A stretch of DNA of 33,733 nt from Chloroflexota bacterium (GTDB taxonomy: Bacteria > Chloroflexota > Chloroflexia > Chloroflexales > Roseiflexaceae): contig JAGWYG010000030.1 of the NCBI GenBank assembly GCA_018969485.1, forward strand, positions 1 to 33,733, read 5' to 3'. The notes below the pieces were generated by a model. It was not told the origin of the DNA. It saw only the letters and a list, made by a program, of their open reading frames with translations, and searched no databases. Both the position numbers and the translations under genes were made by a program. Positions 11,903-15,472 of the stretch are shown here, piece by piece (position 1 is the stretch's first letter; every line of letters begins with the position of its first letter).

Positions 11903-13507
11903 TCAGTCGGCCTGGCGGCGCACCCGTGCGTCGATGCGCTGCTCGGCCGCCAGTCGCTCGAGATCGTACTGCGCCAGATCGACGAACTGCATGCCATGCG
12001 CGAGCGTCGGATGGACGGCAGCGATCTGGTGGTACATCGCCTGCGCCACTCGGCGATACCCGGGATGCCCCTGGCGCCCGCTGCGCAGCTCAATGAGGTG
12101 GTAGGCTTCGCGGAGGTTCAGGCCAAAGCTCCAGCGCACGCGATACGCCAGCGGCACGGCATACTGTGCCACCACCGGCAGATCTGCGGCGATCGCCTCG
12201 TACGTCGCCGCAGCACGGTCGAGCGCCGAGCGGTACTCGTCGGCGACACCGGCCTCGACCAGATCGTCCGGCACCGCATACCCATGCGACACACCATACA
12301 CCTGCTGCTGCTGGGTCAGCATGCGGTGGCGTTGCAGATCGCGATACGCCCCGATGTCGGCCACAATGTCGAACAGGTAGTGGGTCGCCTCGAACGCCCG
12401 ACCCGGCTTGTGGAAGCGTGACTCCCGTGTGCCGACATACTCGCGGAGCACCGCCACGCGGGTGGCGGCGTCCAGTTCGCGCACCGCAGCGCAGACCTCC
12501 GCATACGACGCCTGCGCGTGCGGATAGAGGATGGCGGCGATGACGCGTTCCTCGGCATCATCATCCCACTGCACCAGGTGCACCGAATCGGCGGATGCTG
12601 GCGCGGGCGCAATCTGCCGGGCGATGATCCGCCCCGCAGCCCGGGTCGTCGCCAGATAGGCCGCATGCGCCGCGCCGCGCGGCGTCGCCGCGCGCTTGAT
12701 GAACGACGGGATGAGATGGTCGAGCTCGGCATGCATCGCACCGCCCAGCGCGCGCACCTCGGCGAACGGCGACGACGCCGCCCTGGTGAGCAGGTATTCA
12801 AACGCCCGGCCGTTGCCGTACAGTCCGACGTTCGTCAGCGTCGCCATCGGCAGCAAGCCACGCAGCAGGTCGAGCGCCCGCGCCCGCGTCGCGCTCAGGT
12901 ACGCCCGCTCGCTCGTCGCACCATCGCGGGGCGTTTGCCGGCGGACCCACTGCGACACCGGCTCGATGAGATGCGCATAGGTCGCGAACAGCGCGTCGAG
13001 TGTTGCCTCATACGTCGCCGCATGCCGCGACGCCATCACGTCGGCATCGCGATAGTAGCGGTAGCGTCCACCGATGGGCTGCGCAAACGAGACATACCGC
13101 GTCGATTTCTCGAGTGGTGCGATGCCGATCCGACTGGCCTCGATCGCCTTGGCGGCGATATTGCTGATCGATTCGCACGCCAGATGCGCCCCACCGAGCT
13201 CGGCGACCGAGTCATCGCCATATCCGATGAGGACGCGCTCATAGAAGGCCTCTGCACGGCGCCGCGCGGCCTCATCGGCCGAACTGGTGGCCGTCGGCGT
13301 GAATCCGGCCCCCTCGCCACCGAGAAACTCTTCGAGCAGGATGCGCCGCAGGCTCTTCTCGCTGCGACTGTAGCGCGAGAACAGCGCCCCCTTCACTACC
13401 TCGGGCAGACCCTGCAAGCCGAACACCGGGCGATCCACGTTGGTGACATACGGCCGCAGCCGCTCCTGCTCCGCCGCGCCGAGTGGCTCGTCCCACACGC
13501 TGCTCAT
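11903..13507 (-). CDS. Double-length ThyX-like protein (FAD-dependent thymidylate synthase family, two domains)
   Basis: 534 residues from ATG 13507 (GGAGG four bases upstream), about twice a normal ThyX. ThyX makes dTMP from dUMP using methylene-tetrahydrofolate and reduced FAD, with a signature RHRxxSxxxxSxRY. The N-terminal half keeps the later part (EKSTRY, about 133-138) but has EASRIG where RHR should be. The C-terminal half keeps RHR (393-395) but has TQQQQVYG instead of the serine and SxR part. Both halves retain the later LP...N-R and the LR...R region. So it is a tandem duplication with split motif conservation; it may be an active enzyme with composite sites or a diverged paralog. 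ThyX-like family is secure, activity is not. Its start overlaps the previous gene's stop by four bases. Confidence 0.82.
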   Translation of the reverse strand: MSSVWDEPLGAAEQERLRPYVTNVDRPVFGLQGLPEVVKGALFSRYSRSEKSLRRILLEEFLGGEGAGFTPTATSSADEAARRRAEAFYERVLIGYGDDSVAELGGAHLACESISNIAAKAIEASRIGIAPLEKSTRYVSFAQPIGGRYRYYRDADVMASRHAATYEATLDALFATYAHLIEPVSQWVRRQTPRDGATSERAYLSATRARALDLLRGLLPMATLTNVGLYGNGRAFEYLLTRAASSPFAEVRALGGAMHAELDHLIPSFIKRAATPRGAAHAAYLATTRAAGRIIARQIAPAPASADSVHLVQWDDDAEERVIAAILYPHAQASYAEVCAAVRELDAATRVAVLREYVGTRESRFHKPGRAFEATHYLFDIVADIGAYRDLQRHRMLTQQQQVYGVSHGYAVPDDLVEAGVADEYRSALDRAAATYEAIAADLPVVAQYAVPLAYRVRWSFGLNLREAYHLIELRSGRQGHPGYRRVAQAMYHQIAAVHPTLAHGMQFVDLAQYDLERLAAEQRIDARVRRQAD

Positions 13508-15121: not shown

Positions 15122-15220
15122 CGCGTTCGGGGGAGGTTGTTGGAATGACGCGGCGCGCGCGGCCAGTTGTGGCGCCTGGACGTGCGCTTGCCGCAGCAGA
15201 CGGCCGCATCCTATCCTGCA
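15122..15220. repeat. Intergenic repeat A, copy 1
   Basis: About 99 bases, closely matched by copy 2 at 15373-15472 in the same orientation. The first ~36 and last ~48 bases are almost identical; a short central part has diverged. It forms the left edge of the block A-B-B'-A' between pdxH and the oxidoreductase. Confidence 0.88.
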
Positions 15221-15234
15221 TACACCCCCCGCAA

Positions 15235-15290
15235 TGGGGATCATCCTGGGCACCCGCAAGGGGTGCTACGGGGATTGCCCGCACGGTGGG
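15235..15290. repeat. Intergenic repeat B, copy 1, with hairpin
   Basis: 56 bases, repeated at 15311-15366 in direct orientation with a single mismatch. It contains a short hairpin: GCACCC, a five-base loop, GGGTGC. The mismatch between copies lies in the loop, so the stem is preserved. Confidence 0.9.
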
Positions 15291-15310
15291 TCGGCTCTTG
15301 CGGTCGCCCG

Positions 15311-15366
15311 TGGGGATCATCCTGGGCACCCGCAGGGGGTGCTACGGGGATTGCCCGCACGGTGGG
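15311..15366. repeat. Intergenic repeat B', copy 2, with hairpin
   Basis: Second direct copy of the 56-base unit, 20 bases after the first. The same six-base stem is kept. Six bases separate its end from repeat A'. Confidence 0.9.
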
Positions 15367-15372
15367 GCGACC

Positions 15373-15472
15373 CGCGTTCGGGGGAGGTTGTTGGAATGAC
15401 GCGGCGCACGTGGCCATCCCGCAGCGCCTGGACGTGCGCTTGCCGCAGCAGACGGCCGTATCCTATCCTGCA
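15373..15472. repeat. Intergenic repeat A', copy 2
   Basis: About 100 bases, direct copy of 15122-15220. It ends 40 bases before the start of the next gene, so it lies within the likely leader or promoter region of that gene. Confidence 0.88.

Follow-up and report, generated by a model that had tools for sequence, protein, structure and literature searches.

A double-length ThyX with complementary halves as the probable flavin-dependent thymidylate synthase of a Chloroflexota bacterium

Introduction

ThyX is an essential enzyme of DNA-precursor synthesis and an antibiotic target, and its active site is common to three subunits. In the published description of that site (PMC6514825), subunit A contributes the RHR motif and Arg199 (R174 in the numbering used here), subunit B brings Ser71 (T55) and Arg190 (R165) to FAD, and subunit C supplies Ser105, Arg107 and the lid residue Tyr108 (S88, R90 and Y91). 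Here we analyse a 33,733-nucleotide stretch of a Chloroflexota genome (the window), in which one reading frame encodes two ThyX-like domains that each carry a different part of the motif. The question is whether a working thymidylate synthase can be built from two such halves. A first-pass annotation of the sequence had proposed that a fused dimer could rebuild one hybrid site from two broken ones, or that the protein is a divergent paralogue that carries out some other flavin reaction. Residue numbers follow Thermotoga maritima ThyX, set from the 1kq4 sequence, except where residues of the 534-aa protein itself are named.

Results and Discussion

The gene and the fold of its halves

The gene lies at 11903-13507, where the first-pass annotation had placed it, and is encoded on the minus strand (Table 1). 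Its ATG is at 13507 and its stop codon at 11903-11905, giving 534 codons. The start codon and the stop codon of an upstream YdjC-like gene share an ATGA, GGAGG precedes the start, and the remaining neighbours encode a pyridoxamine phosphate oxidase, an MFS transporter and a homoserine dehydrogenase. Elsewhere in the window, at 15122-15472, three interleaved pairs of direct repeats, near-identical (95-98%) and 44-59 nt long, lie upstream of the pdxH-like gene and before the next oxidoreductase gene.

Table 1. Coordinates of the tandem ThyX gene, its halves and the active-site residues assigned to each half.
Feature	Coordinates	Strand	Evidence
Tandem (two-domain) ThyX gene, 534 aa	11903..13507	minus	ORF and translation, Pfam Thy1 twice
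N-terminal ThyX-like half, residues 1-300; proposed B and C roles (dUMP loop, second FAD contacts)	12608..13507	minus	AF2 model
C-terminal ThyX-like half, residues 304-514; RHR half, proposed to hold FAD (A role)	11966..12598	minus	structure match
E133-K-S135-T-R137-Y138, E86/S88/R90/Y91 loop kept in N-half	13094..13111	minus	invariant in 38 close homologues
E123-A-S-R126, N-half counterpart of RHR, degenerate, third Arg alone kept	13130..13141	minus
S100, T55 equivalent (FAD contact, B role), N-half	13208..13210	minus
R216, R147 equivalent, N-half	12860..12862	minus
R393-H394-R395, intact RHR, C-half	12323..12331	minus
R475, R174 equivalent, C-half	12083..12085	minus
R370 at T55 position of C-half, part of degenerate site	12398..12400	minus	Arg in 78/81 C-halves

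The Thy1 profile of Pfam matches the protein in two stretches with 126.7 bits against a cut-off of 24.8, and only Thy1 matches were returned; in the search of the genome both halves individually exceeded the cut-off. The ThyX equivalog model TIGR02170 of NCBIfam scores the protein at 52.7, below its cut-off of 87.9. An AlphaFold model of the full-length protein has a pLDDT of 82 and a pTM of 0.82, and its C-half aligns with T. maritima ThyX (1o26) over 193 residues (Z 16.5, rmsd 2.6). Modelled alone from 41 homologues (AF2), the N-half reaches a pLDDT of 89.8; the closest solved structure is M. tuberculosis ThyX (3gwc, Z 12.2), and the top 47 rows all belong to the ThyX family before the score falls to Z 4.1. 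The best chain unrelated to ThyX gives Z 4.4 for the C-half and Z 4.1 for the N-half; each half also has a structural match to PolB (4p5a/4p5b). By sequence and predicted fold, both halves are thus ThyX domains.

Division of the active-site residues

The motif letters read in the first-pass annotation are exact: EASRIG...EKSTRY in the N-half and QRHRMLTQQQQVYG in the C-half, where Q392-R-H-R395 is followed by M-L-T-Q-Q-Q-Q-V-Y-G. We compared 81 non-identical tandem proteins, 19-84% identical to the 534-aa protein. T/S55 is present in all 81 N-halves and no C-half, as is R147, which in T. maritima ThyX contacts dUMP from the other chain. S88 and R90 are likewise found in 81/81 N-halves, S88 recurring in a single C-half by alignment count. 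Conversely, R78 occurs in every C-half and no N-half, and H79 in every C-half and 3 of the 81 N-halves. R174 is Arg in all C-halves; in nearly all N-halves a K or R stands beside a one-residue gap, leaving the register unsure, so its loss from the N-half is not clean. With the halves pooled, T/S55, R78, H79, S88, R90, R147 and R174 are each supplied by one half in 81/81 proteins. The complementary split noted at first is therefore real and wider than described, since it also takes in T55 and R147, which were absent from the original list, and, less cleanly, R174. The claim that the N-half lacks RHR holds for R78; however, the third Arg is kept (R126), the equivalent R80 being Arg in 67 of the 81 N-halves. 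R165, the FAD contact from subunit B, is an exception to clean segregation: 70/81 N-halves and 67/81 C-halves have Arg there. In the clade to which the 534-aa protein belongs, H53 is replaced by Asp in the N-half and is missing from the C-half, and position 75 carries Asp instead of Gln or Glu.

Alignment-free patterns gave the same division. The pattern [EQS]xSxR[YF] was found in 81/81 N-halves and no C-half, and RH[RN] in 81/81 C-halves, while no N-half has RH[RN] at the motif position; RHR together with a downstream S-x-R within one domain was seen in neither half of any of the 81 proteins. By these patterns the apparent R90 in some C-halves is an effect of alignment register, while an apparent R174 in some N-halves stays ambiguous. 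An earlier set of single-domain controls had been chosen by the RHR..SxRY pattern and was circular for those residues; we therefore used 30 loci chosen by Pfam score. By pattern, 28 of these have both RHR and SxRY in a single chain; on reading, so does a 29th, L080, which a length filter had removed. Against a relative of 84% identity (L029), dN/dS is 0.14 (0.17 for the N-half, 0.10 for the C-half). Taken with the fixation of the split in 81/81 distinct homologues, this argues that the split motif is neither chance nor sequencing error.

Thymidylate synthesis in the host and its relatives

A second thyX, or a thyA, elsewhere in the genome had been named in the first-pass annotation as a finding that, together with a failure to complement, would count against the hybrid site. 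The host genome (4.0 Mb, 95.6% complete) yielded neither a second ThyX nor a ThyA (PF00303), and no DHFR; it has one thymidine kinase gene, so that thymidine salvage is possible. In a set of 47 near-complete genomes from the order, tandem ThyX is present in 37, a single ThyX in 4 and a ThyA-type gene in 6; ThyX together with a ThyA-type gene, or neither, was found in 0/47. The Fisher p of 1e-7 for this exclusion is too optimistic, because the 47 genomes share ancestry. One of the 37 (G023) has the N-half alone, in a short open frame. Across the Chloroflexota sample, about 100 genomes carry tandem ThyX, and 4 of these have any ThyA-family match, all of them weak and from one family. This phyletic pattern, together with the lack of an alternative synthase, suggests that tandem ThyX most likely serves as the thymidylate synthase of these bacteria.

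Several relatives depart from the common arrangement. Relatives in two genera (g12 and g20; L023-L028) have ThyA and no ThyX, ThyA apparently having taken the place of tandem ThyX; the best NCBIfam match of one of these (L023) is the methanogen-type TIGR03283, below its cut-off. In family f2 of the same order, the single-domain ThyX proteins (L003-L005, L008) have KHI or KHV for RHR and a long insert before NEASGRY; in L008, NEA and SGRY are separated by an intein that contains an HNH domain (Pfam). Genome G316 holds both a tandem ThyX (L138) and a canonical single one (L120).

Origin and spread

In a tree built without the motif columns, the N-halves form one clade (98/93) and the C-halves another (70/39), which points to an ancient split, lasting since the duplication. 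We therefore favour a single ancient duplication and fusion, probably followed by wide transfer. Two very diverged tandem proteins of about 600 aa (L136 and L137, family f5; 19-20% identical) were missed by the phylum profile search. Their N-half carries HHHP and their C-half QRHR, the same split possibly reached through a separate fusion. For these two the tree prefers a single origin over an independent fusion, though a topology with their N- and C-halves as sisters is not rejected (AU p 0.16).

Tandem ThyX also occurs on records labelled as plasmids of Miltoncostaea, Euzebya, Parabacteroides, Bacillus and Paenibacillus. In phage Tunturi_5 it adjoins dUTPase and dCMP deaminase genes. The IMG/VR data contain 64 tandem loci, many on contigs >150 kb, which reduce to 56 distinct ORFs. 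Each of these ORFs shows SxR in its N-half and RH[RN] in its C-half, and the Tyr lid is lost in two (L164 and L185). The neighbours of the 64 loci gave three matches to dUTPase and none to dCMP deaminase, so phage gene context gives weak support. A record labelled Parabacteroides distasonis plasmid (NZ_OY725790.1) carries a tandem ThyX, which is unusual for Bacteroidota; the gene lies four genes before dihydrofolate reductase.

A hybrid active site and its alternatives

Because the residues kept in each half match the published subunit roles (PMC6514825), we assign role A to the C-half and roles B and C to the N-half. Residues lost and residues kept agree with these roles in all the tandem homologues checked, which lends support to the idea of a hybrid site made from two broken halves. 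We consider it likely, on sequence grounds, that the double-length ThyX is a fused pseudo-dimer with complementary halves and acts as the flavin-dependent thymidylate synthase of its host. An ancestral thyX would have duplicated in tandem and fused, after which the halves specialised: the C-half would retain the FAD-holding RHR and R174, and the N-half the dUMP loop S88-x-R90-Y91 with R147 and the second FAD contact, T/S55. Two fused chains would then form a pseudo-D2 assembly resembling the ThyX homotetramer, each C-half meeting N-halves at two interfaces and the second C-half at the remaining one. Such an (N-C)2 dimer would hold two complete FAD/dUMP sites and two degenerate, dead ones. The segregation of T55, a B-role residue, to the N-half is predicted by the D2 geometry and would be unexpected if just one interface were mixed. 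The chemistry would be that of an ordinary ThyX, the methylene of CH2-H4folate passing via FAD N5 to dUMP.

Which halves meet in a site is less settled than the split itself. The halves of one chain might not pair with each other, the hybrid sites arising solely between separate polypeptides, within dimers or larger assemblies. With a site shared by three subunits (PMC6514825), a second chain must in any event supply one contact or more, and we regard this arrangement as possible, if clearly not the leading one; however, the pTM of the full-length model suggests a settled orientation of half to half, and the core claim would be unchanged. The degenerate sites might themselves have been conserved as a second pocket, binding another ligand that regulates dTMP synthesis. 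Candidate residues for such a pocket are the Arg at position 55 of the C-half (78/81) and the Arg at position 80 of the N-half (67/81). We think this rather unlikely, but if it were so, tandem ThyX would be an allosteric pseudo-heteromeric enzyme.

The protein could instead belong to the ThyX family yet catalyse a different flavin or nucleotide reaction, as PolB does, with dTMP obtained through thymidine salvage. Its score below the TIGR02170 cut-off, the thymidine kinase gene and the structural match of PolB to both halves are in keeping with this. However, among relatives tandem ThyX swaps one for one with single ThyX or ThyA, each dUMP-contacting residue of ThyX is kept once, the lack of DHFR is a frequent companion of ThyX in gene sets, and thymidine auxotrophy is improbable across so many free-living genomes. 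The diverged paralogue with another reaction, which the first-pass annotation had left as its alternative, would deprive about 100 Chloroflexota genomes of a thymidylate synthase, and we judge it improbable. Least probable of all is that the C-half alone is catalytic, with its missing dUMP contacts replaced locally by TQxxQ and the N-half a structural or regulatory relic. The fold of the C-half is indeed nearer to canonical ThyX (Z 16.5 vs 12.2) and TQxxQ is conserved in close homologues, but the stretch after the RHR of the C-half varies widely between clades, and SxR and R147 are invariant in the N-half, unlike a relic.

Comparison with known systems

Reading the hybrid site as proposed, tandem ThyX would be a natural separation-of-function experiment, showing for most active-site residues which subunit must supply them, and would clearly illustrate complementary loss within a shared active site after a fusion. 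As it is apparently the sole thymidylate synthase in the roughly 100 sampled Chloroflexota genomes and many large phages also carry it, how it functions is relevant to annotation, and the current equivalog model misses it.

The accessible text of Valas and Bourne 2009 (PMC3224940) reports that Chloroflexi except Dehalococcoides have only a domain-duplicated ThyX, found also in a few other species, and calls it uncharacterised. Ours is the same protein group: there are two Thy1 domains per chain, and no other thymidylate synthase was found in the host genome. That accessible text makes no mention of residues per half or of a hybrid site, and no description of the residue split was found in the literature searched, which took in a minority of subscription papers. 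What is new is the proposed mechanism, a split site, and not the existence of the duplication. The PDB includes entries whose titles name H53D, R174K, R90A and S88A.

PolB of Streptomyces cacaoi (4p5a, 4p5b) has the ThyX fold and a reaction related to that of ThyX. Unlike the tandem form, PolB has a single domain, and its entry describes a UMP/dUMP methylase and not a cellular thymidylate synthase; the neighbouring genes of the tandem ThyX showed no antibiotic gene cluster of the PolB type. The tandem proteins of Tunturi_5 and of the Bacillus, Miltoncostaea and Parabacteroides plasmids share both the two-domain layout and the residue split. These phage and plasmid copies are 22-42% identical to the 534-aa protein and are annotated as FAD-dependent thymidylate synthase, the name used by RefSeq, or as thymidylate synthase.

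Canonical ThyX (TM0449, 1o26; 3gwc; PF02511, TIGR02170) has the same fold as both tandem halves, and the FAD/dUMP residue set tested is complete in the tandem form once the halves are pooled. Both can be the sole thymidylate synthase of a genome. Where canonical ThyX has one domain per chain and scores above the TIGR02170 cut-off, the tandem protein falls below it and has two domains per chain, neither with a complete motif; and whereas canonical ThyX has four sites, the tandem form is predicted to have two live sites per four domains.
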